Assembly (NCBI GenBank): GCA_030268105.1
Contig: BSDZ01000078.1
Location: 1,302,001 to 1,366,000, forward strand
Direction: 5' to 3'
Source: Volvox africanus
Taxonomy: Eukaryota > Chlorophyta > Chlorophyceae > Chlamydomonadales > Volvocaceae
Length of the DNA: 64,000 bases
The position numbers and the translations under genes are program-made. The notes beneath the pieces are model-generated. The model did no database searches, was not told where the DNA came from, and was given only the letters and a program-made list of their open reading frames with translations. Shown here one piece after another: positions 1 to 30,182 of this stretch (the first letter of the stretch is position 1; every line of letters starts with the position of its first letter).

Positions 1-374
1 GCCTCTGCCTTGCGCCGACAGAAAGCAGGGAGTAATACACATGCGGCAGTGCCTGGATATTGACGCCTACATCTCCTGTATATGGCCAACTGTTCCGACA
101 TCTCACGCAGAGACGAGGGGATGAACAAAACCACGTGGTTAGACAGATCGATAGACGACAGGGGACGGCGAGGTGTAAACAAATTACACAACGGGTCGAA
201 GCAGAGAAGTCCCGTGCGTCCGTCAAGCGTGATGCGTCGCGCAATGACTCGCTCGATGTGTCCAAGTACACAAGGCAACAATGCCTTAACGGCTGGCCGT
301 AAGGATGACCACCGACCACGCGTTAGTTCAGAAATCCCAGGTGGTGCCCCCTCCGCAGGAACCCGGGAAAGCCC
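1..374 (-). CDS. E1 pol, N-terminal part (partial)
   Basis: The frame is open from the codon after the gag UAG to the window edge. It matches the pre-protease region of E2 pol at the protein level, including a segment reading [13 protein letters not shown]. There is no ATG near the 5' end, so expression would need readthrough of the UAG. Protease, RT and integrase lie outside the window. Confidence 0.75.
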
Positions 375-377
375 CTA
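336..377 (-). promoter_or_regulatory. Putative UAG readthrough signal of E1
   Basis: The UAG (complement of 375-377) ends gag and stays in frame with pol. A 7-nt spacer follows (368-374), then a 7-bp stem: arm CCCGGGT (complement of 361-367) pairs with ACCTGGG (complement of 336-342) with one G-U pair and an 18-nt loop. The stem, spacer and UAG recur in E2, E3 and E4. Function is inferred from this conservation. Confidence 0.65.
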
Positions 378-3824: not shown

Positions 3825-4648
3825 TGTTGTGCTACGGTTAGTTTCCCGCCGATGCGTAGGTCGATGTGATCCTACAAGGCGAAGTGCTATTGTGATGAAC
3901 ACATTGCATATGAATGAATCTGCATGATATAAATGTATTCGTGCACATTTATATATGCATTTGGCATGTTGTCATTACCCATCGCGACATCGCATCATGG
4001 CAAATCCGCCTAGCATGCATGAAAGCCCAAAGCATTGAAGTGCGCATTATGCTCGTGCTACAAAACGATAAGTAATATTATCTGATATCATATTACTTCA
4101 TTACAGCACACGTTGAGAGCGCCGCACTCGTCGCGACACATGCCCTGCAACCGGATATCGTTATCCGGACCCTTGCATCATGCAAATGCCGGAAAGGCTT
4201 ATACGTTGTTATGCGTAGACATCGCCTATACGCAGTAGGATTGTCACATCTAGGATCGGCCTCCTAATGTGAATCGTACGGCATTGCGATACTGTGAGTA
4301 TAACAGATGCGAGGACGGCTAAGCAAGACTAGACATTCGATACCGGAGAACACTCGTGTGTTCTATATTACTATTGCTATATGCTATTCTACTTAGCCCG
4401 AGCTAAGCCTGAACTTCGCTAATCACCGCCGCGTGATGATTGCTTGCTTCCGGCGCTGACGGCGATTTCGTCCATTGCATCGTTCCGATCTGTAAAACTG
4501 TAAGTTATATCTCTCTTCGTCTTGAAGTCTTCCGCTGTCTCTGTTTGCTCTCGCTTGCCTTGCTGTACTTGCAAGTGCTCGCGCATCGGTGTCGAAAGTC
4601 TCCAGACGTGCAGATACTTATGAGCAAACGCAAACGAGAGGTACAACA
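3825..4648 (+). repeat. E2 5' LTR (family A, 824 bp)
   Basis: TGTTGTGCTACGG at the start and GAGGTACAACA at the end, with 8-bp terminal inverted repeat character. It is the inverted counterpart of the E1 LTR 923 bp away. Confidence 0.95.
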
Positions 4649-4932: not shown

Positions 4933-5355
4933 TGTTGTATATGGTACCCACGAAGGGTGGTATCAAAAGATACCGGTTGTTGTGCCAGAGCCCGATTAAG
5001 TAGAGCCGCCGACTAGGTCGTACTTGAGAGACCATAAGGCCTCGAACCGGGCGTGACCTTCAGAAGTCACCACTACAACCGGAGATTCAGTGAACCAGGA
5101 ACCAGATGTTCCACCATTTACCATTCAGGCGGTAAATGGCCCATTCCATACAGGTTATGGAGTAACCGACAGGTTCGGATGTTTCAGGAAGTCGGTTAGT
5201 ATTGGTCGTCGACAGCCGAGACCAAATCCACAAATCGAATGCCAGATGGAAACATGAAACAGTTAATATGATAATTAAATATATTATATTATAAAATAAT
5301 AAACAGATAATTATTATATCTTAATGAATTACCGAAATGCATTAAGGATACAACA
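4933..5355 (-). repeat. E3 3' LTR (family C, 423 bp)
   Basis: Plus-strand ends TGTTGTAT..ATACAACA form an 8-bp terminal inverted repeat. Internal hairpins include GGTATC-AAAA-GATACC and a 9-bp stem CCATTTACC/GGTAAATGG. Confidence 0.95.
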
Positions 5356-5369
5356 ATTGTTCCCCCTCT
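5356..5369 (-). other. E3 polypurine tract
   Basis: AGAGGGGGAACAAT on the minus strand directly before the 3' LTR, the expected plus-strand DNA priming site. Confidence 0.75.
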
Positions 5370-5424
5370 AGATGCAGCGTCCCGATGCATAAGAAGAGAG
5401 CAGACAGGTTGAAGTAGGACAGCG

Positions 5425-8400
5425 TCAGAGAGGTCCGTCCTTAGACTGTGTCCGCAGCCTAGCTTCATCAAGCAGGGGTTTCATGTCAGGGGTGAAGTTA
5501 CGTGCCGGTTCCCAGCTATTGTGCTCAGATGAATACCCAGACCATTTAACCAGGTACTCATGCACATTGCGCTTACGCCTGCCCTTGCCAACACGTCGTG
5601 CACGGTAATCTAGGATACGTTCGACAGCATACAGGGTCTGCTTACCCGATAACCAGGTAGAGGGATTAGCTTCCGTAACAGGAGGGATGCTATCGTTAGC
5701 CTCAGGTAGAGTACCCCGATATGGACGTACGAGAGATACATGAAATGTGGGATGAATGCGTAGGTCAGATGGGAGTTGTAACTCTACAGCCACCGACCCT
5801 ACCATGCGTACGACAGGATAAGGCCCCACAAAGCGCGGTAATAACTTGCGAGACCCATCAGCCAGGGAACGAAGGTTCTTCGTGCTCAACATAACCAGCT
5901 GGCCCTTAGTGAACATGACGTCCTTTTTGGACTTGTTATAATAGTCCATAGCCCGTTGCTGTGCAGCTTCCAGGCAAGCTTTAGCGTCAGTTAGTCGGGA
6001 CACGAAAGACTTAGCAAACGTTTTTGCAGCTGGAACATTTACGTCCAACTCCCGCCAAACAGGCAAAGCAGGGTTAAAACCGTAATTCAGGAAAAACGGA
6101 CTATTACCAACGGACCGGTTAGTAGCATTATTAATGGCAAACTCAGCAGCGGTTAGGTAGGTATCCCATGCAGTAGGGGTGCGTCCTGCAAAGTTACGGA
6201 GCATATCACCCAGGACACGGTTAACACGCTCTGTTTGCCCATCAGATTGGGGGTGGTAGGCGGTGGACAGGTTCACCCGCATTCCTACCAGAGTCCCCAG
6301 GGCGCCCCAAAACTTACTTGCAAATTGAGTGCCGCGGTCAGATACCACGGACTTGGGGACCCCATGCAAACGTACCACATTGTCGAAAAATAGACGGGCC
6401 GTTTGCTCAGCTGTGCAGGATGATGTCGTGGGGGCCAGGTGGACCATCTTGGTGAAACGGTCGACCAGGACCAGCACGGCATCGTATCCTCCCTCAGTTT
6501 TGGGCAGCGCAACAATAAAGTCCATAGAGACGCTTTCCCACGGAGCGTCAGGAATAGGAAGAGGTTGGAGATGCCCATGTGCTTTACCAGACTGGGCCTT
6601 ATTGCGCTGGCACAGGTCACAACAGAGGACATAATTTTCGGTGTCCTTAGCCATGCGGGGCCACCAGAATTGACGCCGCAAAAGCTCTAGTAACCGCGTG
6701 CAGCCAGGATGCCCAGCAAGAGGGCCGTCATGAAAACGTGAGAGAAGTTCACGACGTAATGAATCGTCGTTAGGTACAACAATCTGACGGTGGGATCCTT
6801 CCGATCGGATCCATAAGCCATGCTCCTGTGCCAAGTGCCCCGTGTTGTTGTGAATTGTGAACCACGGGTCGGCTGCATAAGCCTGTTTCAAGCGCTTGGT
6901 AAAATCGGAGGGCACGAAGTTAGGTTTTGCCTGAGACCTACTCCGTGTGCTTACCGCCAGAATGGCTGCATGCAGTGAGGGGTGCCTACTGAGAGCATCA
7001 GCTATGTTAAGTGAGCCGCCCAGGTACTCCCAATCAAAGTTAAACCGTGCCAGGTATTCCATCCAGCGGGCCTGGCGTCGGTTAAGGGAGGGCACACCTT
7101 GCAGAAACGTAAGGGGTTTGTGATCAGTCTTGAGGGCAAAAGGCCGGCCCTCAAGGTAACATCGCCATTCCTTCAAGGCATGTAGGACCGCCAGAAATTC
7201 CTGTTCCCCAGTGGTATAACGGGTTTCAGCCCCCGAAAACTTCTTACTCGTATATGCAATGGGGCGTCCCTGCTGCAACAGAACTGCCCCCGTCCCATGT
7301 ATAGATGCATCAGTTATGACCTCTACACGGAACGGCAATGAGTAGTCAGGGAAGTGCAGGATAATATCATCAGAGATAGCACGCTTCAAAGCATCAAAAG
7401 CTTCTTGGCATGCGGGGGTCCAGGCCTCAGGTGAAGAGAAGGCTCCCTTACGTGTGAGGTTTGTTAGCGGTGCAGCAATGACTGAGTAGCGCTCTATGAA
7501 CTTACGAAAGTAGTTGGTCAGGCCCAAAAACTTACGCAGTTCCTGAAGGTTGGAGGGCACTGGCCAATCCCGAACAACAGCAGTTTTCCGGGGGTCCATC
7601 TGTATGCCACCCTGAGACACTATATGCCCCAGATACTCCACCTGTGGTTGTGCCCAGTGGCACTTAGAACGCTTAGCATACAGCTGCTCACGCCGCAGAA
7701 CCTCAAAGACCAGGCGGAGGTGTTGTATGTGCTCCTCACGGGTCTTTGAAAACACCAGGATATCGTCCAGATAACAGATGACGAATTTGTCGATGTATGG
7801 CCTGAAGATGCGGTCCATGACGGCTTGGAACGTTGCAGGGGCGTTCGTCAGTCCGAAACTAAGGACAGTATATTCAAAATGGCCAAACGGCGTACGGAAA
7901 GCCGTTTTAGGGATGTCAGATTCTGCTATACGAATCTGATTATACCCCTGCTGGAGGTCAATAGAGCTAAAGAATGCAGAATCTTTTAGCTTATCCAGCA
8001 GATCATCGACACGTGGGAGGGGGTAACGGTTCTTAACTGTTGCGGCATTTAACCCCCTATAGTCAATGCACATTCTCAGAGTCCCATCCTTCTTTCCCAC
8101 AAACAGAATAGGGGCGGAGTATGGGGATGTGCTTGGCCGTATCATACCTTTTTTCAGCAGCTCAGTAACCTGTCGTTTGACCTCGTCCAGCTCCAAGGGG
8201 CTTAGCCGATACATGGGGCGGGAAACGGGTACTGCACCAGGCACCAAAGGTATGGTGTGATCCACAGGCCGCATTGGAGGCTTACCAGGGACCTCCTGGA
8301 ATATATCTGCATATTCCTGTAACAGGGCCTCAAGCTCAGGGTCAGTGGCATCAGCTGGGATAGAAGTTGCATTCAGGTGCAACTTGGGCCGTACTAGTAA

Positions 8401-9495
8401 AGCATGGGCCCCCTTGCGAATCATGCGAACTGCTGCTTTTCTGCCAACAACTTCAGGTTCAGTATGCTGACAGATAGCAGTGGTTGCATAATTAAAGCAA
8501 GGCGCAGGTGTCATCTGATCTGGTGGCTGTCCGGCAGTAGTAAAGGGTACCTTGCAGACTAGATTCCCCTTGCGCAGGCGCAAAGATTTAGCCTCATAGT
8601 CAAGGACAGCCCCATACTGTGCTAGCGTGGAAGAACCCAAGATATACGTGGCAGCGTCAGTTAGCTCAGGCAACACGTATGGGCGGACATTTAACCTTAA
8701 AGGACCTGCAGATAGACGAAGATTAACCTGCCCCAAGATAGCCTGCTTACCCCCATCAGCAAGGGTAACTTCTGACCAGGAGCATGGGCTAGGTTTCAGG
8801 CCAAGCTGCGTAACCACTGAAGCCGAAATGAAATCATCACTGGCTCCAGAGTCGGCTAGGGCGGTGAACGTACGACCTGCCGTACTTACGGTGATCAGAG
8901 GTACGCCAGCACCTATCAGGGCAGCAGCTTTAGGCAAGCAGAGAACTGAAATACAGGGTTCAGTCTCAGGCAAGCCCTCCTGAACCGATTTAGGAGCAGC
9001 AAACCAGACGTCAACAGAGTATGGGCTTCCAGGGAGTTGAACAACCTCACCTGCCGTATCAAGGCTATGGAAAAGAGCCGTCCCTGGATTAAACCTTAAG
9101 ACCCGTTGCATTCCCGACAGAAAAGAAGGGTTGCGTCGGGACACATACTCAGGCAGCAAGATGCATGCTGAGGTATCAGGGTGTTGACGTTTGCATGCCC
9201 TAAAGAGAGCTAATTGCTTCTGTAGCTCGCAGAGTGAAGAGGGAGTGAACAAGATAGTATGCCCACCCAAGTTAGCGGAGGATAGGGGGCGACCTTGAGG
9301 CTCAAACAGATTACAAAAGCCATCAAAGCCGGCACGGACAGTTCGTGCATCAAAAGAAAAACGTCTCCCTATCACCTGCTCCACTTGGTTTAAAACAGAG
9401 GGCAAAAGAGCCCGTACTGCACGGCACTTTGCTACCATCTGGCCCACAGCAAAGACCCCAGGTGGTGATCCCTCTATACCAGCCTGGGCAAGTTC
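5425..9495 (-). CDS. E3 Pol: protease, RT, RNase H, integrase, chromodomain
   Basis: The frame is open from the codon after the gag UAG to the stop. The first ATG is 16 codons in (complement of 9447), and positions below count from it (1340 residues). Protease D199-S-G. RT about 400-600 with YLDD at 559-562. RNase H region begins near the ITDAS motif (711). Integrase zinc finger His906, His913, Cys943, Cys946. Catalytic D976, D1037 and E1073, giving D,D-35-E. A chromodomain follows near 1270-1325 with VHEYLVKWSGY. All key residues are present. Expression as Gag-Pol by UAG readthrough is inferred. Confidence 0.92.
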   Translation of the reverse strand, partial: ELAQAGIEGSPPGVFAVGQMVAKCRAVRALLPSVLNQVEQVIGRRFSFDARTVRAGFDGFCNLFEPQGRPLSSANLGGHTILFTPSSLCELQKQLALFRACKRQHPDTSACILLPEYVSRRNPSFLSGMQRVLRFNPGTALFHSLDTAGEVVQLPGSPYSVDVWFAAPKSVQEGLPETEPCISVLCLPKAAALIGAGVPLITVSTAGRTFTALADSGASDDFISASVVTQLGLKPSPCSWSEVTLADGGKQAILGQVNLRLSAGPLRLNVRPYVLPELTDAATYILGSSTLAQYGAVLDYEAKSLRLRKGNLVCKVPFTTAGQPPDQMTPAPCFNYATTAICQHTEPEVVGRKAAVRMIRKGAHALLVRPKLHLNATSIPADATDPELEALLQEYADIFQEVPGKPPMRPVDHTIPLVPGAVPVSRPMYRLSPLELDEVKRQVTELLKKGMIRPSTSPYSAPILFVGKKDGTLRMCIDYRGLNAATVKNRYPLPRVDDLLDKLKDSAFFSSIDLQQGYNQIRIAESDIPKTAFRTPFGHFEYTVLSFGLTNAPATFQAVMDRIFRPYIDKFVICYLDDILVFSKTREEHIQHLRLVFEVLRREQLYAKRSKCHWAQPQVEYLGHIVSQGGIQMDPRKTAVVRDWPVPSNLQELRKFLGLTNYFRKFIERYSVIAAPLTNLTRKGAFSSPEAWTPACQEAFDALKRAISDDIILHFPDYSLPFRVEVITDASIHGTGAVLLQQGRPIAYTSKKFSGAETRYTTGEQEFLAVLHALKEWRCYLEGRPFALKTDHKPLTFLQGVPSLNRRQARWMEYLARFNFDWEYLGGSLNIADALSRHPSLHAAILAVSTRSRSQAKPNFVPSDFTKRLKQAYAADPWFTIHNNTGHLAQEHGLWIRSEGSHRQIVVPNDDSLRRELLSRFHDGPLAGHPGCTRLLELLRRQFWWPRMAKDTENYVLCCDLCQRNKAQSGKAHGHLQPLPIPDAPWESVSMDFIVALPKTEGGYDAVLVLVDRFTKMVHLAPTTSSCTAEQTARLFFDNVVRLHGVPKSVVSDRGTQFASKFWGALGTLVGMRVNLSTAYHPQSDGQTERVNRVLGDMLRNFAGRTPTAWDTYLTAAEFAINNATNRSVGNSPFFLNYGFNPALPVWRELDVNVPAAKTFAKSFVSRLTDAKACLEAAQQRAMDYYNKSKKDVMFTKGQLVMLSTKNLRSLADGSRKLLPRFVGPYPVVRMVGSVAVELQLPSDLRIHPTFHVSLVRPYRGTLPEANDSIPPVTEANPSTWLSGKQTLYAVERILDYRARRVGKGRRKRNVHEYLVKWSGYSSEHNSWEPARNFTPDMKPLLDEARLRTQSKDGPL

Positions 9496-9498
9496 CTA
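9457..9498 (-). promoter_or_regulatory. Putative UAG readthrough signal of E3
   Basis: UAG (complement of 9496-9498), 7-nt spacer GAACTTG, then a 6-bp perfect stem: CCCAGG (complement of 9483-9488) with CCTGGG (complement of 9457-9462) and a 20-nt loop. The fourth pair is A-U here, G-U in E1/E2 and G-C in E4. Confidence 0.7.
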
Positions 9499-10875
9499 GT
9501 GGTCCTTACCCTTATTTTTCTCCGCCCCCAGCATTGGGCAGGAGTCAACCCTATGTTGGTCGGAACCGCAACGGAGGCACATCCCATGTTGTTTACGGAA
9601 ATGGAACTCCCGTCTAGTACATTTGAATGTGGTTAAATATTCCGCTAGGTTCTGCTTGGGCCCCTTCTTCTGCACGTGGCCCCCTTTTGGGGCCAAGTGC
9701 CTCCCCTGCTGTCCGCCGCCCCTCTTAGACTTACCGGCGCCCTTAACCTGCCGCGGCTGATCCTCGTGCCCGGTGATGCCTGGACGAACGGATGCAGCCC
9801 GCGGTTTTTTGGTCGGGGGCGCCGGGGTCTCCTCGTCAGGGTCGTCGCAGGCCATGTCCTGTACCGACAGCATGTTCATTTTGGGACGGGCCAGTTTGTC
9901 AGATTCCCGTCGGGCCAGTAACCTAAGTTCAGCTCCCAGGGAGAACTGAACCAAGTCTGTATATGACTTAAAGGTTTTACCCGACAGGTCAGTTGCACAG
10001 TCCCCACTAAGGTCGGATGAGAGGCCCTGCTGAAACCAAAACACACGCTCACTATCAGACAGGTCCGCAATGGGCGTGACAAGAGCCTCAAAGCGGCTCT
10101 GATAGGCAGAGACAGTTTCTCCAGGGCGCATGCGGTATTTGCCAGCATTTAATTTCAGGCGTGCCTCAGTGTCACGTGACTGGACCTGGGGTGCAAAACG
10201 GACAAGCAGTGCTTCTAGCAGTTCCTCAGATGTATAGGAATCCCTTGCGTTAGTCCATTGATCGTGCCATAATCTTGCCGCGCCTTCAAAGGCAGTGGCC
10301 AAGAAAAGACGGCGCGTAGAGTCCTGTTGACCCCCACGGGCTGTGGCAAAGTAGTTCCTAACATTACGGACAAAGGCCCGTGTTAGAGGCGCAGCAACTC
10401 GTCCTAAATCAGAAAGCTTAACATCCATAGGGATATTCAGCTTAGGCACTGCGATCGCTATTTTTATCACCTCGTCCTCATGTCCAGTATGAGGAGGCCC
10501 AGGTGGCCTGGAAGAGGTGCCCGCAACAGCAGCACAAGTTGTTGCGGCAGCAGCGGGAGCCATCCCAGGAATATCCACGGCACCAGGTGTCAAATGGTTT
10601 GACACTACAGCAGGGCCATGAACATAAAAAGGGGATGGGGCATAAATAGGTGATGTAGGTGCCTCAGGGGATGCTGTGCCGCCTTGCCTGGGAATAGGTG
10701 AAGGCTGGTTCGGAAGGTCGATACCACCTGCCACAGCAGCATTTGGTGGCTGTGTCAACCTAGAGAGCCATTCCCACCTATTCACTTGGCTAGCATTAGC
10801 AGCAATCCGGCCAACAAACTGAAAGGTGTTGGCAGCAAGAGCCGAGACAGCATTCGCTAAGTTCGAGGCTTGCAT
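9496..10875 (-). CDS. E3 Gag-like protein
   Basis: 459 residues from the ATG, intact. The N-terminal third is rich in Ala, Pro and Gly, followed by the capsid-like core (LWHDQW, then AYQSRFEALV). A Lys/Gly-rich linker follows, then a classical zinc knuckle Cys433, Cys436, His441, Cys446 (C-x2-C-x4-H-x4-C). The sequence is open upstream of the ATG as far as an acceptor-like site at 10892/10893, so a spliced N-terminal extension is possible. Confidence 0.9.
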   Translation of the reverse strand: MQASNLANAVSALAANTFQFVGRIAANASQVNRWEWLSRLTQPPNAAVAGGIDLPNQPSPIPRQGGTASPEAPTSPIYAPSPFYVHGPAVVSNHLTPGAVDIPGMAPAAAATTCAAVAGTSSRPPGPPHTGHEDEVIKIAIAVPKLNIPMDVKLSDLGRVAAPLTRAFVRNVRNYFATARGGQQDSTRRLFLATAFEGAARLWHDQWTNARDSYTSEELLEALLVRFAPQVQSRDTEARLKLNAGKYRMRPGETVSAYQSRFEALVTPIADLSDSERVFWFQQGLSSDLSGDCATDLSGKTFKSYTDLVQFSLGAELRLLARRESDKLARPKMNMLSVQDMACDDPDEETPAPPTKKPRAASVRPGITGHEDQPRQVKGAGKSKRGGGQQGRHLAPKGGHVQKKGPKQNLAEYLTTFKCTRREFHFRKQHGMCLRCGSDQHRVDSCPMLGAEKNKGKDH

Positions 10876-11425
10876 ATTGTATGCCTGAAAGCCTAACAGA
10901 TCGAACTGCGAGTGACTGTTCTGGCGAAAGGCAAAGCAAAGGCAAGGACCAGGGCCTACCCAACGCTTGGATGCCTTCGATGAACTTCAAAAATTTTGAA
11001 GTCCGCGCGTGAAGTTGATTTGCGATGGATCGGAGTGACTGGGCAGAGGTGCCGCTCCGAAGGGTCTGAGGTGTTGACACTGCAGAAGCACTCACGGCGG
11101 TTGGAACAAACACAATACCTTTCAAGTAATAGAGATATATATGTATTAGTGAAAGCCGAAGTGAATTCACGAAGTCGACTCCTCGTTGGATTCGATGCAA
11201 AGGTACTATCGAACCCGCAACTACAGGGATTCCTCAGCAAAACTGCAATACAAGTTCTAGATAGAAAGCAGTGTTGCAGGAAGATATTACCTAACAGAGA
11301 AGGCAGAATTGTCTAGGTCGCGAGCCACGTTGACCGCGACTAACTTAGAGATTGACTTTAACAGAAAGCACAGCCAAACTCACAGAGAGCAGGTTCTAAG
11401 TGTCACTAGACTAATTTCGTGAATA

Positions 11426-11533
11426 TTACAGACCGGTGGTAGCCGCAGCGAAAATGGCGGCGCTCAGCTCCTCAGGCAATGTCTCCATGTCCAGAGGGAT
11501 GTCGGCAGGAGGAAGATCGTGGTCGATGTCCAT
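11426..11533 (-). CDS. E3 leader short ORF or spliced first gag exon
   Basis: 35 codons, ending in PLDMETLPEELSAAIFAAA and a TTGL tail, clearly related to the leader ORFs of families A and B. A three-exon model reads through in phase: 11533-11434, donor G|GTCTGT; 11079-10960, donor G|GTAGGC; then acceptor at 10893/10892 into gag. This would add about 79 residues to Gag. The splice sites are inferred by eye. A free micropeptide ending at TAA is the alternative. Confidence 0.55.
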   Translation of the reverse strand: MDIDHDLPPADIPLDMETLPEELSAAIFAAATTGL

Positions 11534-11664
11534 TTATAAAAGGGCAGCTTGAGTGGCTTGAGCGCGTTGCGCGGTTAGAGTGGCTTGAGCAGTTACCACA
11601 GAAAGACTTGAGAAGGCTTGAACGATTTCAGCGGAAGACTTGACGAGACGTCCCAGGGAGGAAC

Positions 11665-11677
11665 GGTCTCGATACCA
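11665..11677 (-). other. E3 primer-binding site
   Basis: TGGTATCGAGACC, 3 nt from the 5' LTR on the minus strand. Same primer tRNA as the other families. Confidence 0.8.
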
Positions 11678-11680
11678 GCT

Positions 11681-12103
11681 TGTTGTATATGGTACCCACG
11701 AAGGGTGGTATCAAAAGATACCGGTTGTTGTGCCAGAGCCCGATTAAGTAGAGCCGCCGACTAGGTCGTACTTGAGAGACCATAAGGCCTCGAACCGGGC
11801 GTGACCTTCAGAAGTCACCACTACAACCGGAGATTCAGTGAACCAGGAACCAGATGTTCCACCATTTACCATTCAGGCGGTAAATGGCCCATTCCATACA
11901 GGTTATGGAGTAACCGACAGGTTCGGATGTTTCAGGAAGTCGGTTAGTATTGGTCGTCGACAGCCGAGACCAAATCCACAAATCGAATGCCAGATGGAAA
12001 CATGAAACAGTTAATATGATAATTAAATATATTATATTATAAAATAATAAACAGATAATTATTATATCTTAATGAATTACCGAAATGCATTAAGGATACA
12101 ACA
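11681..12103 (-). repeat. E3 5' LTR (family C, 423 bp)
   Basis: No difference seen from the copy at 4933-5355. Flanked on the right by the duplicated CCGGA. Confidence 0.95.
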
Positions 12104-12290
12104 CCGGACCATTTGGCGACTCTCATCGCCCAAACTACGGAGATCAGGACTCAGCTGGGCAAGTACTTGCTGAGTTTACTGAATCTTCTCAAGAGTACTG
12201 TCGGTAGGCTCACCGAATCGTTTTGTACTCTTGCCTTTGCGATAGAAGTCGGCTTCTATTACGCAAACCTAGGGTATCGTTTCGTGCTCC

Positions 12291-13526
12291 ATGTCCGCGG
12301 AACATGACGATACGCCGCACACTAGCCTAGCTAGCCAACCCGATTTTGTTGTGGCTGCTAGAGCACCGGATAGAGGTCTTGAGACTGTTGGCGCGCGAGC
12401 CACTCAAGAGCCCCTTTTCCTTCAGACCCCTGCTCACTTAATTGTGCCGCACTCAGCAGTGAACACGAATATGGACAACACTGCTGGACCAAGGGTTCTG
12501 CCATTACCTCAAGCTCGAGGGCATGATGACATCCCTGAGGTGATGAGATTGTCGATTCCCGTTCCTAGGCTCAATATTTCGCTGACCGACAAGACACCAG
12601 GGCATAGCATAGCCGATGCAACTCGTGCGTACGTGCGTGACGCTAAAAAGTATCTCCAGGCTGTTCATGGTGGCGATAATGACGGTATCAGGTGTCTCTT
12701 CGTTGGTAACACCCTCGAGGGCTCAGCGAAGGACTGGTATCGCAATTGGACCAACGCCCGGGGCAACTATACTTTTGACGAGTTGGTCGCCGCTTTGCTC
12801 GCACGATTCGCTACTGAGGTTCAAGCACGCGATGTGGAAGCTCGTAAGGTTTTGGCAGCCGGTAGCTACCACATGCGTCGGGATGAAAATGTACCTGCGT
12901 ACCAGTCACGCTTCGAAGCACTTGTGACTCCCATTGCTGACCTCACTGAATCCGAGCGTGTCTTTTGGTTTAGGCGAGGCCTGACGAAACTTTTGGCTAA
13001 ATGGTGCGCTACTGACTTGGTTGGGGCGCAGATCAAGTCGTATGATGCTTTGGTCGCTTTTGCTAAGGGCACGGAGATACGACTCCTTGCCGGTGAGGAA
13101 GAAGTCAAGTCTGCCCCTCGTGCAAATGCCGTGCAAGTGCAGGATCCGCTTGGGGAAGCCGTAGCTCTTGACCAGGACTTCGGAGCGACCCGCCCCACGC
13201 CTACTGCCGCGACGCGACGCAGCAACCGGCAATGCCAGGCGCGCGGGGGCGCTAGCTCGGGTGTCCGTGGGTCAGGAGGAGCAGGTCTGAGCTCGGACCC
13301 GGCTAAAAACAGGAAGCGTGGTGGTGCGCCGTCGACGGCAGCCGCACAGCGTTCCGACCCCAATGCGAAGCGGACTCGCACGGACGACACGTATATGCCA
13401 AAATGGAATTGCAATCGTTCCGAATTCGAGCGTCGGAAATTGGCCAACGTTTGTCTATGGTGTGCGGAGAGCCATTCCACGAAGGATTGCCCGCTAATGC
13501 CGCCGTTTGTACCTCAGCCGAAATAG
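12291..13526 (+). CDS. E2 Gag-like protein
   Basis: 411 residues, nearly identical to E1 Gag, with an intact frame. It has the same capsid-like core. The zinc knuckle is at Cys388, Cys391, His395 and Cys400, with Trp in place of Arg at 390. Ends in a UAG in frame with pol. Confidence 0.9.
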   Translation: MSAEHDDTPHTSLASQPDFVVAARAPDRGLETVGARATQEPLFLQTPAHLIVPHSAVNTNMDNTAGPRVLPLPQARGHDDIPEVMRLSIPVPRLNISLTDKTPGHSIADATRAYVRDAKKYLQAVHGGDNDGIRCLFVGNTLEGSAKDWYRNWTNARGNYTFDELVAALLARFATEVQARDVEARKVLAAGSYHMRRDENVPAYQSRFEALVTPIADLTESERVFWFRRGLTKLLAKWCATDLVGAQIKSYDALVAFAKGTEIRLLAGEEEVKSAPRANAVQVQDPLGEAVALDQDFGATRPTPTAATRRSNRQCQARGGASSGVRGSGGAGLSSDPAKNRKRGGAPSTAAAQRSDPNAKRTRTDDTYMPKWNCNRSEFERRKLANVCLWCAESHSTKDCPLMPPFVPQPK

Positions 13527-13565
13527 GGGCTTGCCCGGGTTCCTGCGGAGGGGGCACCACCTGGG
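13524..13565 (+). promoter_or_regulatory. Putative UAG readthrough signal of E2
   Basis: UAG at 13524-13526, spacer GGGCTTG, then stem arms CCCGGGT (13534-13540) and ACCTGGG (13559-13565) with an 18-nt loop. Geometry is like the signal used by murine leukaemia viruses, where a pseudoknot starts 8 nt after the UAG. Confidence 0.7.
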
Positions 13566-16500
13566 ATTTCTGAACTAACGCGTGGTCGGTGGTCATCCTT
13601 ACGGCCAGCCGTTAAGGCATTGTTGCCTTGTGTACTTGGACACATCGAGCGAGTCATTGCGCGACGCATCACGCTTGACGGACGCACGGGACTTCTCTGC
13701 TTCGACCCGTTGTGTAATTTGTTTACACCTCGCCGTCCCCTGTCGTCTATCGATCTGTCTAACCACGTGGTTTTGTTCATCCCCTCATCTCTGCGTGAGA
13801 TGTCGGAACAGTTGGCCATATACAGGAGGTGTAGGCGTCAATATCCAGGCACCGCCGCATGTGTTTTACTCCCCGCTTTCTGTCGGCGCAAGGCAGAGGC
13901 ATCGTTAAGGGGTATGCGGCATGTCCACCGGTTCGAGCCGGGCACCGTTTTGTTTAATGGTGTGGATCAGGAGGGTACGCTGGCTCCGTGGCCAAGCATA
14001 TCCTACTCGGTTGACGTTTGGTACGAAGCTCCTGACGGGGGTGCCGTAGGTTACGGACCCGCCCTAAGTGCACTGACGTTGTCTGCTGGGCAGTCGCTCG
14101 TAGATAACCGTGTCCCTGTGGTTCAGATCGGTTTGAATGGCCGTACTCTGAAGGCACTTGTTGACACCGGTGCCAGCGACGACTTCATCTCTGTCGCAGA
14201 GGTGAATGCGCTGGGGTTGTCCCCAGAGTCGTCTGATTGTCCACAGGTTACCCTTGCTGACGGGGGTAAGCATCCCATCGTGGGCAGGATTACCCTTAGC
14301 CTATCGATAGGCCCTTTGCGTGTTGTGACCCGGCCGTACGTGCTGCAGGGCTTAGCAGAGACTGCACCGTACATAATGGGGTCGTCGACATTACGGCAGT
14401 ACCGCGCGCGCATCGACATGGAGACCGCAACCCTGCATATGTGCAAGGGTACTCTGTCGATTAAGGTACCTTTCCTGTCGTTCGAATATGTCACACCAAA
14501 GGAGGGCGAAACTGAGGCGGTGCCTATGGTTAATTTCGCTGTGACCGCAATGGCCGCGCGAATCAAACCAGAGCTAGTCGGGCGTAAGGAGGCCGTCCGT
14601 TTGTTACGGAAGGGTGCCCACGGACTGCTTTTAAGGCCGCGGGTGAGCTGTTGTGTCACCACCGCGCAGATTTCTGCGGATCCTGAGGTTGAGGCCCTAC
14701 TGTCGCAGTATGAGGATGTCTTTAAAGATATCCCTGGCCTACCACCTATGCGTCCTGTAGATCACACAATCCCTCTCGTGCCTGGAGCGCAGCCTACGGC
14801 CCGGCCAATGTACAGGTTGAGTCCATTGGAGCTGGATGAGGTAAAGCGCCAGGTGACGGATTTGCTCGCGAAGGGTATGATACGCCCCAGCACATCCCCG
14901 TATTCTGCACCGATTTTGTTTGTCGGTAAGAAGGATGGGACCTTGCGCATGTGCATTGATTACCGGGGGTTAAATGCGAATACGGTGAAAAATCGCTACC
15001 CTTTGGCCACGCGTTGACGACCTGTTGGATAAGCTGAAGGGCTCGGCTTATTTTTCCTCAATTGACTTACAACAGGGCTACAATCAGATTCGCATCGCTG
15101 CCTCTGATATCCCGAAAACCGCTTTTCGGACGCCCTTCGGTCACTTTGAGTATACGGTCCTATCGTTTGGTTTGACTAATGCCCCTGCGACGTTTCAGGC
15201 GGTTATGGACCGAATGTTTAGGCCGTTTATCGACAGGTTCGTTGTTTGCTACCTGGATGACATCTTGGTATATTCTAAGACGCGCGAGGAGCACATGGAG
15301 CATCTTCGGCTCGTGCTCGACGTTATGAGGCGGGAGCAATTGTTTGCTAAACGCGCCAAATGCTTTTGGGCGCAGCCTCAGGTGGAATATTTGGGCCACA
15401 TTGTGTCGGCCACCGGTGTGAAGATGGACCCGCGGAAGGTCGCCGTGGTTCGTGATTGGCCCGCGCCTCAGAACCTCACGGAGCTGCGTAAGTTCCTTGG
15501 CTTGACCAATCATTTCCGAAAGTTCATTGAAAAATATTCCATCATTGCGGCCCCGCTTACTAACTTAACTCGCAAAGGCGTTTTCGTTTCGCTCGAGTCG
15601 TGGACGTCGCAATGCCAGCGGGCATTCGAAGAGCTCAAACGAATCGTTGCCGAAGATGTCACCCTTGGATTCCCTGATTACTCGTTGCCATTTCGTGTTG
15701 AGGTAGTGTCTGATGCCTCAATATTTGGAAGCGGCGCTGTATTGTTACAGGAAGGGCGACCGATCGCCTTCACGAGTAAGAAGTTTTCTGGTGCGGAGAT
15801 TCGCTACACCACTGGGGAACAGGAGCTTCTGGCCGTGCTGCATGCTTTAAAGGAATGGCGCTGTTACCTCAAGGGACGCCCGTTTACTTTAAAGACTGAC
15901 CATAAGCCCCTAACGTTTTTGCAAAGCGTTCCGACGTTGAACCGCCGTCAGGCTAGGTGGATGGAATACCTAGCTAGGTTCGACTGCACCTGGGAGTATA
16001 TTTCTGGTAAATTGAATATTGCCGATGTTCTCAGTCGACATCCGTCGCTACACACTGCAATTTTGGCAGCGCCCGTCGTGCGGCCGCGTAGCGAGGAGGT
16101 ACCGATCGCGACGGACCTCGTGGAGCGGTTGAAGGTTGCCTACAACGCAGACGCCTGGTTCGCGGACCCGGCTAATGTAGAAAACCTTCGCAAGCAGAAT
16201 GGCCTTTGGCTACGGACGGAGGGTGCAGCTACGCAAATCGTCGTTCCGAACGACGACGCGCTACGCTACGACATCCTTGCGCGGTTCCACGAGGACCCGT
16301 TAGCAGGACACCCTGGTAGCAAGCGATTGATCGACTTGGTGCAACGTTCCTTTTGGTGGCCTCGTTTGGCTAAGGAAGCGGCGAACTTCGTCCAGACATG
16401 CAGTCTGTGCCAGCGCAATAAGGCTTTGTCCGGTAAGGGCCAGGGGTTGTTGCAACCGTTGCCTGTCCCGGATGCGCCTTGGGAAAGTATTTCCATGGAC

Positions 16501-17589
16501 TTCGTAGTCGCGCTGCCCAGAACTGAGGGGGGATACGATGCGGTGTTCGTAATGGTCGATCGTCTGACTAAGATGGTTCACCTAGCATCATGCACATCAT
16601 CCTGCACGGCTGAGCAAACCGCACGTTTGTTTTTCGATAATGTGGTTCGGTTACACGGGGTTCCCAAAAATGTGATCTCGGACCGCGGTGGGCAGTTCAC
16701 GTCTAAGTTTTGGGAAGCGCTCTGCAAACTAGTTGGCATGCGCGTCAACCTGAGCACGGCGTATCACCCGCAGACTGATGGTCAAACCGAACGCACAAAC
16801 CGCACGTTGGGTGATATGTTGCGCAATTATGCTGGTCGCACACCACTCGTATGGGATACGTATTTGACTGCGGCAGAATTCGCACTTAACAATGCTGTTA
16901 ACCGCTCTACAGGCAAAAGTCCGTTCTTTCTTAACTATGGATTTCATCCCGCGCTACCCGTGTGGCGTGAGTTGGAAGTGAACGTGCCTGCTGCTAAACT
17001 TTTTGCCAAGTCTTTTATGTCCCGAATCACAGACGCGAAGTCGTGTTTGGACGCGGCGCAGCAACGAACGACGGAATACTATAACAAATCTAAGCAGGAT
17101 GTGACGTTTTCGGAAGGGCAACTCGTGTTGCTAAGCACCAAGAACTTGCGTTCCTTGGCCGACGGATCCCGAAAACTTTTACCCCGCTGGATTGGTCCGT
17201 ATCCTGTCATGCGCATGGTTGGGAATGTGGCTGTGGAGCTTGCATTGCCCGCTGACATGACCATTCACCCCATGTTTCACGTATCGCTTGTTCGTCCGTA
17301 TCGTGGTACAGAACCCGTCCCTGAGCCTTCTAACGCCCCCGCAGCGATCGAACCAGTTCCCGAGACCTGGGTCGCTGGTAAACAGAAGTTTTACGATGTG
17401 GAGCAGGTGTTAGATTATCGCGCTTGTAGTGTGGGCCGACACCGACGTAAGCGGACAGTACACGAGTACTTGGTCAAGTGGACAGGGTATACCAGCGAGC
17501 ACAACTCATGGGAACCGGCACGCAACTTCTCGCAGGACATGAAGCCCCTGCTCGAAGAAGCCCGCAAACGTGCCACGCAAGCCCAATGA
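13527..17589 (+). pseudogene. E2 pol with one single-base frameshift
   Basis: The frame continues from gag through the UAG. It covers the pre-protease region, protease ([10 protein letters not shown]) and the start of RT up to RYPL. One extra G at 15005 or 15006 then shifts the frame, giving a stop at 15015-15017. From 15025 the original frame resumes: RT with YLDD, RNase H (VVSDAS), integrase zinc finger, D/D/E catalytic motifs (SMDF, SDRGG, QTERTNR), then the chromodomain. All active-site residues remain, so this is a single inactivating lesion or a sequencing error. Confidence 0.92.
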
Positions 17590-17648: not shown

Positions 17649-18472
17649 TGTTGTGCTACGGTTAGTTTCCCGCCGATGCGTAGGTCAATGTGATCCTACA
17701 AGGCGAAGTGCTATTGTGATGAACACATTGCATATGAATGAATCTGCATGATATAAATGTATTCGTGTACATTTATATATGCATTTGGCATGTTGTCATT
17801 ACCCATCGCGACATCGCATCATGGCAAATCCGCCTAGCATGCATGAAAGCCCAAAGCATTGAAGTGCGCATTATGCTCGTGCTACGAAACGATAAGTAAT
17901 GTTATCTAATATAATATTACTTCATTACAGCACACGTTGAGAGCGCCGCACTCGTCGTGACACATGCCCTGCAACCGGATATTGTTATCCGGACCCTTGC
18001 ATCATGCGAATGCCGGAAAGGCTTATACGTTGTTATGCGTAGACATCGCCTATACGCAGTAGGATTGTCACATCTAGGATCGGCCTCCTAATGTGAATCG
18101 TACGGCATTGCGATACTGTGAGTATAACAGATGCGAGGACGGCTAAGCAAGACTAGACATTCGATACCGGAGAACACTCGTGTGTTCTATATTACTATTG
18201 CTATACGCTATTCTACTTAGCCCGAGCTAAGCCTGAACTTCGCTAATCACCACCGCGTGATGATTGCTTGCTTCCGGCGCTGACGGCGATTTCGTCCATT
18301 GCATCGTTCCGATCTGTAAGACTGTAAGTTATATCTCTCTTCGTCTTGAAGTCTTCCGCTGTCTCTGTTTGCTCTCGCTTGCCTTGCTGTACTTGCAAGT
18401 GCTCGCGCATCGGTGTCGAAAGTCTCCAGACGTGCAGATACTTATGAGCAAACGCGAACGAGAGGTACAACA
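17649..18472 (+). repeat. E2 3' LTR (family A, 824 bp)
   Basis: About 13 substitutions relative to 3825-4648 and no indels. Followed by the duplicated TCATA. Confidence 0.95.
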
Positions 18473-19477
18473 TCATACACCTTTTGCTTGCCTGCGATCC
18501 AGGTCTTGGAACCGGGGTCCATTACTGCAGGGGCATCGGTGTCGTTTGTAACAGGCGTCGTGCCGTGATAAGGGTGAATTAAAGAAATATGATATGTGGG
18601 ATGGATATTCATGTCAGAAGGTAGGGATAGCTCCACGGCTACATTCCCTACCATGCGAACAACGGGATATGGATCCAACGAGGTAACAATTTACGGGAAC
18701 CGTTGTTGAGCGAACGCAAGTTCTTAGTGCTCAGTAATACCATTTGTCCCACCAAAAATGTTACGTCCCGTTTAGATTTATTATAATAGTCCGTCGTCCG
18801 TTGTTGTGCCGCGTCCAGGCATGCCTTCACGTCCAGGTATCCACGAGCGCCTTCATCAGTTGACCTCCAAGGCCGATTTCGATGATAGGGACGCGATTCC
18901 CTGTCGGAGTCGACTCCTCGGAAAGCAAAAGTGATCCTAAAGCAGGCTCGAACCTGGTAGGATTCAAAAGAGGAGCCTCGAACCAAACTTCAGCAGCATA
19001 AGGTAGTTTAGGCAGTATCGTCGGTTTACCCGTCACATCCACACCGTTAAACAAAGCGGTGCCCGACTCGAATCGGAGGACACATTGCATACCTTCCAAC
19101 AAAGATGCCACTTTACGTTGGCTAAAAGAGGGAATTAATATACAAGCTGCAGTGTCCGGATTTCGACGGCGGTACCTCTTGTACCTGGTGACCTGCTCGC
19201 ACAGCTCACGGGAAGTTGAAGGGATAAACAGAGTAACGTGGCCAGATAAATCGAGGGAAGAAAGAGGACAACGCGGTGCAAATAAATTACACAGCAGGTC
19301 GAAATGGTTGAGTCCCGTGCGCCCGTCGAGCGAAAAACATCGCCCGATAGCCTGTTCAATTTGTCCAAAAACAGAAGGTAAAAGGGCCCTTACAGCCGGA
19401 CGCAACAACGGCCAGCGGCCACGTTCACTCTCTTCAATCCCGGGAGAAGTCCCTTCCTCCACATCCCGGGCAACTTC
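18473..19477 (-). pseudogene. E4 pol remnant with large internal deletion
   Basis: From the gag UAG the frame runs through the pre-protease region to the start of the protease motif (ALVDT), then jumps near 18830 to the integrase tail (ACLDAAQQRTTDYYNK). The rest of protease plus RT, RNase H and the integrase core are lost. A second frame change lies near 18675, before the PYPVVRMVGNVAVEL segment. The chromodomain start is cut at 18473 by E2 and continues at 3824. Confidence 0.88.
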
Positions 19478-19480
19478 CTA
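19439..19480 (-). promoter_or_regulatory. Putative UAG readthrough signal of E4
   Basis: UAG (complement of 19478-19480), spacer GAAGTTG, then a 7-bp stem CCCGGGA (complement of 19464-19470) with TCCCGGG (complement of 19439-19445). Two pairs differ from E1/E2 yet stay complementary. Confidence 0.65.
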
Positions 19481-26940: not shown

Positions 26941-27400
26941 GAATAATATATAATAATTATAATCATTAAGTTAATATAATATAATATACTTAATATATAA
27001 TATAATATACTAATATACTTAATATATAGTATTATATATTATTATTTATATTATACTTAATTATAATATTATAATAATATATAATATATAATTAATATAT
27101 ACTTAATATAATTATAATTATATACTATTATTATTATTTATAATAATAACTATTTATATATACTATAATATAAGCTATATAATATTATAATATATTATTT
27201 ATTATACTATATATTACTATATTATAAATATATATTACTACTAAATATATTATATATATTTATATATTATAATATATACTATATTTATATAGTATATTAT
27301 ATTTACTTATAAATAATACGTATACTTTGATTATACTTTAAGTGTAATATTACCTTAAAAGCTGTAAATACTTATTAATAGGTATTAATTAATTAATTAC
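26941..27400. repeat. A+T-only tract, left border of rickettsial block
   Basis: Nearly every base is A or T, made of overlapping TAATATA/TATTATA words and short palindromes. No coding signal. Confidence 0.85.
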
Positions 27401-27424
27401 CGTTAGCTTATTTATTACAGTGTC

Positions 27425-27607
27425 CTAATTACCAGCAATTTAGTCTTTGCAAAATGGAATACTATTTTTAAAGATGATATGACTACCTCAGCTGCTATTG
27501 ACAGACTGGTTCATCATTCTACGATACTTGAACTAAATACTGAGAGTTATAGAATTGCTACTGCTAAAGAAAAAAAATTAACTGTAAAATCGGAGGACAT
27601 AATGTAG
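27425..27607 (+). pseudogene. istB: IS21-family IstB ATP-binding protein, C-terminal fragment
   Basis: Reads TSNLVFAKWNTIFKDD, then AAIDRLVHHSTILELN, then ESYR, and stops at TAG. This is the conserved end of IstB/DnaC-like helper ATPases of IS21 elements (FxxW...D...AAIDRLVHH...). It begins at the edge of the A+T tract, so Walker A and B are missing. AT-rich codon use fits Rickettsiales. Confidence 0.8.
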
Positions 27608-27673
27608 TATATTAGACAATATTTTTTTTGCTCAAAAATGGGTAATTTTAATATTCGTCGTAGCCAATTCTAA

Positions 27674-28039
27674 TGTTCGTTAGTCACAGCTTTGATGCTT
27701 ATCTCATATTTACCCGAACTCGGTAATGCTAATGGTGCTCAAATATCCGCATTGGTTGGGGTAGCGCCTTTTAATAAAGACAGTGGTCGTTATAAAGGAA
27801 AGCGTTTTATTCAAGGTGGGCGCTCTATGATACGAAAATCTCTTTATATGTCTGCAGTCTCTAGTATTAGGTGGAATCCAGACATGAAAAGCTTTTATAC
27901 GAGATTACGCAAATCTGGAAAACCAGCTAAAGTGGCTCTTGTTGCAGTTATGAGAAAATTACTTATTTTATTAAATAATATTATAAAAAGGCAAACTCCA
28001 TGGGAAATAAATAATCCGAAAAAGCTATTTATGGCTTGA
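27674..28039 (+). pseudogene. IS110-family transposase, C-terminal fragment
   Basis: Open from 27674 with no proper start. Contains LISYLPELGNANGAQISALV, then GVAPFNKDSG, then GGRSMIRKSLYM, then KVALVAVMRKLL. These are the transposase_20 hallmarks of IS110 elements. The N-terminal DEDD RuvC-like half is absent. Its stop overlaps the start of the comEC frame. Confidence 0.85.
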
Positions 28040-29974
28040 CTCTTAATACAGATGCTCCTATTACTCTTTACCTTACCATTTTATCTGTTTTAATCTATTT
28101 CGTAGTTTTTCTAAGAATAAAAGAAAAATTTATGTTTAGCTTATTCCTTACCATATTATTTTCTTTTGGCTGCGGCGTGATGATTGCTCATGGCAGGGTA
28201 ACTAACGCTCAAATTTATCCAAAGCCAACAACAAAATCTAATGTTTTTGATATGGAAGCGAAGGTTTTAGAAGTAAAACCTACGATAGGAGGGGCGCAGT
28301 TAATTCTCGATGACGTAGTAATTTTAAATAAAAATGATGATAATTTAAAAGATCGGAATTTGGGTAAAATAAAAATAAGTTTAAGAGGAGAGAGTAGCCT
28401 AGATTTTATAAAAAATGATGTAATAAATTTACGCACGAAGCTTTTTCCTCTTAATTCTGCTTTGCTGCCCGGAGGGTACGATTTCGGCCTTTATATGTAT
28501 TTAAATGGTATTACTGCAACAGGTTTTGCTATTAATCCTCCTAAAATTATTAGGTCCCAATCTAGCTATTTTTATGACAAGCTTCAAAATATAAGGGGTA
28601 TTATATATAAAGAATTAATAAGAATTCTTGGCCCAGATCAAGGTAATTTCGTTGCGGCAATACTTATCGGTGAAACTAAAGCTATGAATAAGCATATGGC
28701 CGATAATATGAGAAATAGCGGAATTGCTCATATCTTAAGTGTTTCAGGATTACACCTATCGTTAGTAGCGATAATTTTTTTATCAGCAGTAGATTTTTGT
28801 TAAATTGTTCAGATTATTTATCATATAAAATAAACATAAAGGTTGCTGCAGGTATTATTTCAATTATAGGAAGTTTCGGTTATTTGCTACTTAGTGGGAC
28901 AAATATAGCTGCTACCAGAGCCTTTAGAATGACATTTTTTGTCATTCTTGCAATTATCATGGAGGGGTCTACATATCCTCTTCGTTCAGTAATGATAGCG
29001 GGGGCGTGTATCTTGTTATTTTCTCCGGAATATGTCATGCATCCAAGTTTTCAGCTGTCATTTTCAGCAGTATTATGTTTAATTTCCGGGTATGAAATTT
29101 ATCTCCGTAATCAGAAATTAATTGGAAGAAGCAAAGGAATTTTTGCTTCTATAAAACTTTATGTTTTTGGCAACCTTTACTCTAGTTTTTTAGAAAGCAT
29201 TGTTACGGCACCTTTTGTGATCTATCATTTTTATAAATTTGCTACATATTCCCTATTGATGAATTTGCTAGCGGTACCACTTATGTCATTTTTTATGATG
29301 CCCCTAGCTATTATTTCCTTGGTAATGATGCCTTTTAATGCAAGCGATTATAGCCTGAAACTACTCGGCTTTTTTGTTAAAATCATTACTACTAGTGCTG
29401 AGTATATAGTTAACTTACCGATGTCGACAATAGATACCGGATATATAACTGATTCTAGTATGCTAATATTTACTTTCGGCTTCTTTTGGGTTTGCCTCTG
29501 GCAAACTACATGGCGCTATTTTGGTTTTATGATTATTCTTATATCCTTAGTTATGATGTATTTATCACCAAAACCTGATTTTATCTATGATCATAGAATT
29601 AAAGCAATTGGTGTAAAGAATAAAGATGTTATAGATATATATTCGAAATTTAGGATATCTAACTTTACAAAAGAGTATTGGTTAGGGTGGTATGGTACAA
29701 AAAAAACCAATATTTTGAAACTGAACTACGAGATCAACTATTTGAATCGGCTGTTAAAGGTGAAAAGTCTACTCTATCTCTAAATTATAACAACTGCTCT
29801 GATGCTAAGGTACAGATTATGATATCATCGAAACTAGCTTGTAACACCAACGGATTAGTAGTAAATTATAGCGATTTGGTTAAATTCGGAATAGTATTAA
29901 TTTTTTGCTCACAAAATAATTGCTATGCAAAATTTGGGCAAAAACCTATTTGGAAAATTAAGGAAAATGATTGA
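28036..29974 (+). pseudogene. comEC: ComEC/Rec2-family competence protein, frameshifted
   Basis: The first frame (to 28803) gives N-terminal membrane segments, a DUF4131-like soluble part, and the ComEC signature GIAHILSVSGLHLSLVAI. A change in a T7 run near 28770-28776 moves the frame. The second part (28797-29783) has repeated hydrophobic helices (PSFQLSFSAVLCL, then FYKFATYSLLMNLLAVPL). A second shift in an A8 run near 29698-29706 leads to the C-terminus ending at 29974. The family is a DNA-uptake channel in the inner membrane. Both lesions sit in homopolymers, so decay and sequencing error are both possible. Confidence 0.85.
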
Positions 29975-30182
29975 AGCAGAAAATAAACTGGCAATTTCCT
30001 GGCTTAAAAACGGTATATGGGCACTAGCCCTTGCCGGTCTCTATTCAATAGTGTTGGTTATTTTAAGAACGCCGCAACTATCTCAAATGATTAGCGATAA
30101 ATCCATATTTAAATCTTCTTTGATAATCCATGTAAATTTATCGGTATTAGCTTGGTTACTTTCAATTACGGTAAAAGGCTAG
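29967..30182 (+). pseudogene. Heme-copper oxidase subunit I-like protein, N-terminal fragment
   Basis: Starts at an ATG overlapping the comEC stop (ATGATTGA), a typical bacterial operon join. The protein reads MIEAENKLAISWLKNGIWAL, two hydrophobic helices, then IIHVNLSVLAWLLSIT, whose His fits a heme ligand position in this superfamily. After 71 residues it ends where the A+T tract begins. Assignment to the cytochrome oxidase I-like proteins of Rickettsiales rests on recall. Confidence 0.5.

Follow-up and report, generated by a model that had tools for sequence, protein, structure and literature searches.

A putative UAG readthrough signal with a conserved hairpin between gag and pol of Ty3/gypsy retrotransposons in Volvox africanus

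Introduction

The closest described systems are the fission-yeast elements Tj1, Tcry1 and Tosmo1-3, chromoviral Ty3/gypsy retrotransposons whose gag and pol are split by a single in-frame stop (PMC10085805). The stop is cited there as essential for Tj1 transposition, and in the fission-yeast elements it is a TGA in the strictly conserved 8-nt context GAA-TGA-CT (PMC10085805). In-frame-stop Gag-Pol, in its UGA-CT form, is already published for chromoviruses of this host.

Viral readthrough signals of type III generally have a UAG followed by a 3' G or purine-rich octanucleotide, and then by a 3' structure of some kind; such structures typically start about 8 nt downstream of the stop (PMC3542737). 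The same source gives UAG-R with an extended stem-loop for epsilonretroviruses, UAG-G with a pseudoknot for gammaretroviruses, and UAG-GGG with a compact stem-loop for rice stripe necrosis benyvirus. In Moloney murine leukaemia virus (MuLV), the gag UAG is followed by an 8-nt spacer and a two-stem compact pseudoknot (PMC4178896). The Candida albicans retrotransposon Tca2 has a UGA, an 8-nt purine-rich spacer and a potential pseudoknot, and its junction did not direct readthrough in S. cerevisiae (PMC2194720). A further background source is the review PMC5009743.

Here we study the gag-pol junctions in a stretch of 64,000 nucleotides from the green alga Volvox africanus, which we call the window. 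Like Tj1, Tcry1 and Tosmo1-3, the Volvox elements belong to the chromodomain Ty3/gypsy group and have an in-frame stop between gag and pol; unlike them, they have UAG-G and a conserved 3' stem-loop, whereas the fission-yeast elements have TGA-CT and no stem-loop is described for them in the available part of PMC10085805. They share with type III viral signals the UAG, the G or purine next to it and a 3' structure, in an arrangement that retroviruses also use for Gag-Pol, but they belong to another superfamily and another host, their 7-nt spacer is only partly purine, and their stem has 6-7 bp. One of the Volvox families is set apart from those signals by an invariant 18-nt apical part as well. 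Compared with MuLV, the gag-pol arrangement and the stop codon are the same and the spacer is offset by one nucleotide (7 nt versus 8). Tca2 resembles them in that a retrotransposon gag stop lies in the pol frame and a structure may follow it, and differs in its stop, UGA rather than UAG. Judged by titles and the openings of abstracts, the open-access papers listed in our searches include no report of a UAG or stem-loop readthrough signal in algal Ty3/gypsy elements.

Results

Junctions of three families in the window

Among the copies in the window, only the element that we call E3 has both open reading frames intact. It occupies positions 4933-12103 on the minus strand and sits inside a second element, E2, between the 5' LTR and the gag of the latter. 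The two LTRs of E3, each 423 bp (5', 11681..12103; 3', 4933..5355), are 100% identical, with CCGGA on both flanks. Its gag is an open frame of 496 codons (9496..10986) with a Retrotrans_gag domain and a zinc-knuckle-like C-terminus, and its intact pol of 1,356 aa (5425..9495) encodes protease, RT, RNase H, integrase and a chromodomain. E2 lies on the plus strand, between LTRs (5', 3825..4648; 3', 17649..18472) that are 98.4% identical. Its gag open frame, from stop to stop, spans 12273..13526 and also has a zinc-knuckle-like C-terminus; its pol (13527..17589) is broken into two overlapping frames, 13527-15017 and 14989-17589. The order of Pfam domains in the pol of E3 and E2 is that of chromoviral Ty3/gypsy elements, and the gag capsid domain scores above the curated cut-off in E3 and just below it in E2. 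On the minus strand, E4 is a broken copy of another family, whose pol N-terminal open frame of 216 aa (18827..19477) is then cut short. The fourth element, E1, extends past the window edge, has its 5' LTR at 2078-2901, and carries a UAG (375-377), spacer and stem-loop at 336..377 on the minus strand. Since E1 and E2 belong to one family (96.7% identity over 1,798 bp), the window holds three independent instances of the junction; these are the three families, A, C and B, into which an initial annotation of this DNA had sorted E2, E3 and E4, respectively.

E3 pol has 1,858 protein relatives. Among the best 120 listed, the closest with an organism name, 78% identical over 80% of the query, comes from the volvocine green alga Astrephomene gubernaculifera. 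The same 120 contain pol-only metagenomic proteins of 1,320-1,377 aa (P0001-P0006), which are consistent with a split between gag and pol elsewhere. Haematococcus gene models of 1,042-2,326 aa, one of them with a gag domain (P0056, 2,019 aa), do not decide the nature of the junction, being gene models.

At all four sites gag and pol lie in one frame and are split by a UAG, which is followed by a 7-nt spacer and a stem of 6-7 bp with a loop of 18-20 nt, just as the initial annotation had read them. In E2, the UAG (13524..13526, plus strand) is in frame with pol and is followed by the spacer GGGCUUG (13527..13533), the 5' arm CCCGGGU (13534..13540), a purine-rich apical part of 18 nt (13541..13558), whose E4-family equivalent is almost invariant, and the 3' arm ACCUGGG (13559..13565); the arms form the 7-bp stem that E1 shares. 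In E3, the UAG (9496..9498, minus strand) precedes the remainder of the module at 9457..9495, which comprises the spacer 9489-9495, the 5' arm 9483-9488, a 20-nt loop 9463-9482 and the 3' arm 9457-9462. Its stem, CCCAGG/CCUGGG, has 6 bp, the seventh position being an unpaired C.A. In E4, the UAG (19478..19480, minus strand) precedes 19439..19477, with the spacer at 19471-19477, the 5' arm at 19464-19470, an 18-nt loop at 19446-19463 and the 3' arm at 19439-19445, and the stem CCCGGGA/UCCCGGG has 7 bp.

A further family, E5, is represented by locus L109, outside the window; its 7-bp stem is perfect. Three more types, E6, E7 and E8, appear among genome pattern matches as candidate families, seen as 42-nt types alone. 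The spacer is 7 nt long in all variants seen and reads GRNNUUG in most. Families E2-E5 share the protein pattern [GE][LV]A[QR]xxxE[GE]xxPG at the junction; because they are homologous there, the exact spacing of 7 nt is inherited and has not been repeatedly invented. A G directly follows the stop in 41/41 E4 copies, which were picked by protein similarity; the 42-nt genome patterns themselves required this G.

The stop codon across the genome

The pattern TAGGNNNTTGCCCNGG-N16-22-CCNGGG has 731 + 848 = 1,579 matches with UAG in the genome, and its reversed control has 0. The same 5' context is found with TAA 0 times, with TGA 0 times, and with the other codons searched 12 times (TAC 1, TTG 5, TGG 1, CAG 3, GAG 1, AAG 1). 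The ratio of 1,579 to 12 is approximate because the search patterns differ: the search for other codons covered TAH, TBR and VAG only, and it asked for GARG in the loop and not for the 3' arm. Two further matches, with TCG and TCA, were judged to be chance and set aside because their remaining sequence is unlike the elements. The earlier observation that the stop is never UAA or UGA holds genome-wide in this 5' context.

Among 111 fetched junctions (30 from E2, 30 from E3, 40 from E4, and L008 and L109-L118; the two window copies E2 and E3 are among them), 109 have UAG. By family, TAG is present in 30/30 E2 loci and 30/30 E3 loci, the window copy being one of each 30, and in 39/40 other copies of the E4 family. 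For E2 and E3, we took the 30 highest-ranked of 150 listed loci each, near-identical repeats included; for E4, the 40 loci were hand-picked going down a ranking of 150 listed and are not a random sample. One exception, L106 (G000:C20:448024-449124), belongs to the E4 family; it reads TTG where UAG is otherwise present, and its open frame is a single fused one of 1,793 codons. In the other, L110 (G000:C22:1879300-1879560), there is no UAG and the pol N-terminus is in frame with a different upstream coding sequence; it is perhaps a rearranged copy. L110 also carries a CCCGGG-rich insertion. The frames are open for at least 100 in-frame codons on both sides of the stop in 30/30 E2, 29/30 E3 and 33/41 E4 copies.

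These frames bear on the idea that this organism reads UAG as sense, or has an efficient suppressor tRNA for it. We regard this idea as almost certainly wrong: the E3 pol (1,356 codons) and gag frames have no internal UAG, and a freely used sense codon would not stay UAG only at the junction.

Coding selection on both sides of the stop

Downstream of the module, E4 pol evolves as protein: pN/pS is 0.254 in pol codons 14-59 and 0.292 in codons 60-129. The first in-frame AUG comes later, at codon 130 in 33/41 E4 copies, and it occurs by codon 60 in only 3/41. The first in-frame AUG of E2 is at codon 92 in 30/30 copies, and E5 has none within the 112 pol codons analysed. Because the codons ahead of these positions are conserved as protein, translation of pol in E2, E4 and E5 would extend over them even though pol offers no AUG that early.

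Pol could instead arise by re-initiation or internal entry after Gag termination. The E3 family would allow it, with an in-frame AUG at codon 20 in 30/30 loci. In E2, E4 and E5, however, the codons conserved as protein begin before the usual first AUG, and pre-AUG coding would be expected from in-frame readthrough and not from AUG re-initiation, which argues for readthrough. This argument concerns AUG starts, and a non-AUG start is compatible with the data; overall, we consider re-initiation or internal entry extremely unlikely.

We also give very little credence to the possibility that the UAG is spliced or edited out of part of the mRNA. Consensus 3' splice sites resemble UAG/G, and the junction looks like one. 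On the other hand, coding selection extends as far as the UAG and is present again immediately downstream of the module, so that an intron over the UAG would remove selected codons. Retrotransposed copies of a spliced mRNA would, moreover, be without the UAG, whereas copies with a sense codon are those 12 against 1,579, among the codon substitutions searched.

Between the UAG and the protease, the pol N-terminus (e.g., 8896-9450, minus strand) contains a conserved domain of about 100 aa. Pfam gave nothing in the N-terminal pieces of E2 and E3 pol. In this region two metagenomic relatives have a match to PF05869, Dam DNA adenine methyltransferase (P0020, E value 6.8e-6, under the curated cut-off; P0028, E value 1.9e-7), and the domain is possibly a captured, degenerate methyltransferase.

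Synonymous sites of the E4 family are constrained from the UAG to the end of the stem

In 41 copies of the E4 family, the 42 nt that start at the UAG have a diversity of 0.017, the lowest of 981 segments of that length. Third-position pi is as low as 0.0038 in pol codons 1-13, compared with 0.202 for gag and 0.147 for the remaining pol segment; 0/265 other 13-codon segments fall below 0.053. Synonymous diversity pS drops from 0.398 in the 13 codons upstream of the UAG to 0.0046 in codons 1-13 and climbs back to 0.287 in codons 14-26. A second figure for the sequence just downstream of the module is 0.255, and synonymous variation falls 55-fold in the module. The values of pN are 0.035 in codons -13 to -1 and 0.082 in codons 14 to 26. 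Inside the module pN, at 0.0218, is greater than pS; thus, the constraint acts on the RNA and not on the peptide. It spans spacer, stem and loop alike, and variation is back at +42 to +44. The loop is as invariant as the stem, and the stem alone does not account for that.

The E2 and E3 families add little or nothing to this test because their copies are too alike: the 42 nt are invariant in both, but 8.9% and 64% of segments, respectively, are equally low. Their diversity tables hold the window copy twice (31 rows each, with 19 distinct sequences for E2 and 14 for E3); the counts of AUGs and open frames were made without the extra row. Across representatives of four families, identical amino acids are encoded by identical codons at 27/38 module positions versus 146/427 elsewhere, in pairs of families that are not independent of each other.

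Two other accounts of this conservation can be weighed here. First, it could serve the junction peptide, e.g., a processing site, with an incidental stem and a UAG that is simply leaky. A peptide pattern is indeed common to the four families compared, but constraint on the peptide predicts the reverse of the observed relation between pS and pN, and we find this account highly improbable. Second, the 42 nt could be an RNA packaging or dimerisation element that abuts the gag stop by chance. The self-complementary CCCGGG of E2 and E4 and the purine-rich loop would suit such an element. Other families have CCCAGG/CCUGGG, however, which is not palindromic within an arm, and the constraint begins exactly at the UAG, so that this account too is very unlikely.

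Folding and covariation of the stem

Minimum-energy folds that begin at the first stem base contain the outer stem in E2, E3, E4 and E5. Against dinucleotide shuffles, the 32-nt hairpin has z scores of +0.19 (E2), -1.39 (E4), -2.23 (E3) and -3.56 (E5), and in 90-nt pieces the fold is unremarkable throughout (z of +0.01 to -1.06). When synonymous codons are drawn at random with the peptide fixed, at least 6 pairs arise in 0.9% of draws for E2, 3.1% for E3, 0.9% for E4 and 2.9% for E5. With the UAG and spacer free to pair, 6/7 E2 variants fold differently, and the stem persists in nine variants from other families; with a ribosome on the UAG, the alternative E2 fold would be blocked. A single inner helix common to all families was considered and rejected, as the four families fold four different ones. 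Conservation is the decisive evidence against chance, and fold energy alone is weak.

Applied to 39 variants, RNAalifold again predicts this 6-bp stem; its covariation term is only -0.36. We report pairing for 58 distinct variants, which omit five E4 variants with the same stem and the TTG copy; a hand-picked set of 39 gives 94.1% paired and contained 2/11 distinct A.C variants, and the figure for the 58 is the one used. In these, 92.4% of the cells of the stem alignment are paired, against 87.9% when shuffled (0/500 as high) and at most 66.4% when slid, and the covariation score is 0.171 against 0.099 (0/500 as high), with the reservation that the shuffles ignore relatedness and that shared ancestry inflates pair counts. 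Two other measures, the count of pairs changed on both sides and that of further pair types, do not exceed the shuffles of the 58 variants (450/500 and 455/500 as high, respectively).

Because the search pattern fixed pairs 1-3, 5 and 6 in most rows, only pairs 4 and 7 test covariation. The identities of both pairs at the window sites are as initially recorded. Pair 4 is A-U in E3 and E5-E8, G-C in E4, and G-U or G-C in E2; over the 58 variants it is A-U in 23, G-C in 18, G-U in 6 and other in 11 (A.C in all 11). Genome-wide, the 1,579 matches comprise 238 A-U, 705 G.U and 15 A.C, the remaining 621 being unsplit and including any G-C. The stem thus covaries at pair 4, as had been proposed from the window alone. 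For pair 7 the same proposal is borne out in part: it is U-A in E2, A-U in E4 and C-G in E5, and paired in 40/58 variants (U-A 22, A-U 8, U-G 6, C-G 4), but the other 18, including the main E3 form, are unpaired. A structure about 8 nt downstream of the stop is, in summary, predicted by folding and supported by covariation at pair 4. Rfam has no match at E<=1 in 9300-13700, which contains the E2 and E3 junctions, and no relatives were confirmed in viral contigs or in bacterial and archaeal genome contigs.

Tests for a pseudoknot

The invariance of the E4 loop, equal to that of the stem, is what one would see if the loop had a partner. The stimulator might then be a pseudoknot in the gammaretrovirus style, in which the purine-rich loop pairs with a downstream pyrimidine tract. 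Each of the four families has a tract complementary to the loop at +72 to +111, among the longest helices listed. Yet when the bases of the downstream part are shuffled 200 times, a helix at least as long as the longest one between loop and downstream sequence arises 197, 61, 153 and 199 times (E2, E3, E4 and E5, respectively). In E4, moreover, the constraint stops at +42, and 15/17 candidate helices contain columns with pi >=0.35. In the other 2/17, loop bases +18 to +24 would pair with +96 to +102, and +25 to +29 with +96 to +100. Diversity is low in their columns (maximum pi 0.095), but these encode a conserved Leu-Leu-Pro, and the longer helix has three G-U pairs. We conclude that such a pseudoknot is unlikely; tertiary contacts are compatible with these data.

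A different candidate, in which the spacer and loop of E4 would form an H-type pseudoknot (5 bp, GAAGU/ACUUC), was rejected: it is absent in E2 and E3 by inspection, and it is broken by a U-to-C change at +33 in 4/41 copies.

The junction had been described as gammaretrovirus-like. This is apt for the UAG-G and for a structure about 8 nt downstream, but the spacer is 7 nt instead of 8 and the pseudoknot finds no support. The gammaretroviral architecture is thus not supported. As far as PMC3542737 describes these signals, the epsilonretroviral UAG-R with a stem-loop is a closer match than the gammaretroviral signal.

Other features of the window

Away from the junctions, a ComEC competence gene (DUF4131 and Competence domains) is split over two frames at 28015-29783 (plus strand). 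It lies in an AT-rich block at about 27000-31000, with a GC content of 11-32% per kb versus 43-59% elsewhere in 18000-64000. Its closest relatives with organism names are from Rickettsiales (P0140, P0146 and P0148; 51-55%), and its best match overall is at 92%. The block looks like decayed rickettsial DNA in an algal genome; rickettsial bacteria in Volvox carteri are the subject of PMC4324946. An FkbM-type methyltransferase domain at 31223-32110 (minus strand) adjoins this rickettsial-like block, and open frames at 41578-43222 (plus strand) have weak F-box-like and ankyrin-repeat matches.

Discussion

We consider it highly probable, from the patterns of sequence described above, that the 42-nt module is a programmed UAG readthrough signal aided by a hairpin. 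The proposal that these elements make Gag-Pol by readthrough of the UAG is well supported by the retention of the UAG, the open frames around it, the purifying selection on pol ahead of its usual first AUG, the synonymous constraint and the covariation at pair 4. According to this mechanism, most ribosomes would terminate at the UAG and release Gag. A minority, influenced by the stem-loop 7 nt downstream, would let a near-cognate tRNA decode the UAG and would continue in the same frame to yield Gag-Pol. The inserted amino acid is probably glutamine, by analogy with MuLV; that readthrough is a minority event, and that the hairpin would be its stimulator, we infer.

Since the 55-fold synonymous drop confines the signal to about 42 nt, it is directly testable, and it could supply algal biotechnology with a compact readthrough element. 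The chromoviral precedents are the UGA-CT elements of fission yeast, as described in PMC10085805; the Volvox elements would extend them to a different lineage, with UAG as the stop, a conserved hairpin and over 1,500 natural matches.

It is also possible, at somewhat less than an even chance, that the UAG and hairpin form a self-contained module of 42 nt without a pseudoknot partner, whose invariant purine-rich apical part is itself active and perhaps contacts the ribosome. If this is true, it would add a new structural sub-class to the UAG-G stimulators, and an old one, common to at least four diverged families and three further 42-nt types in one genome.
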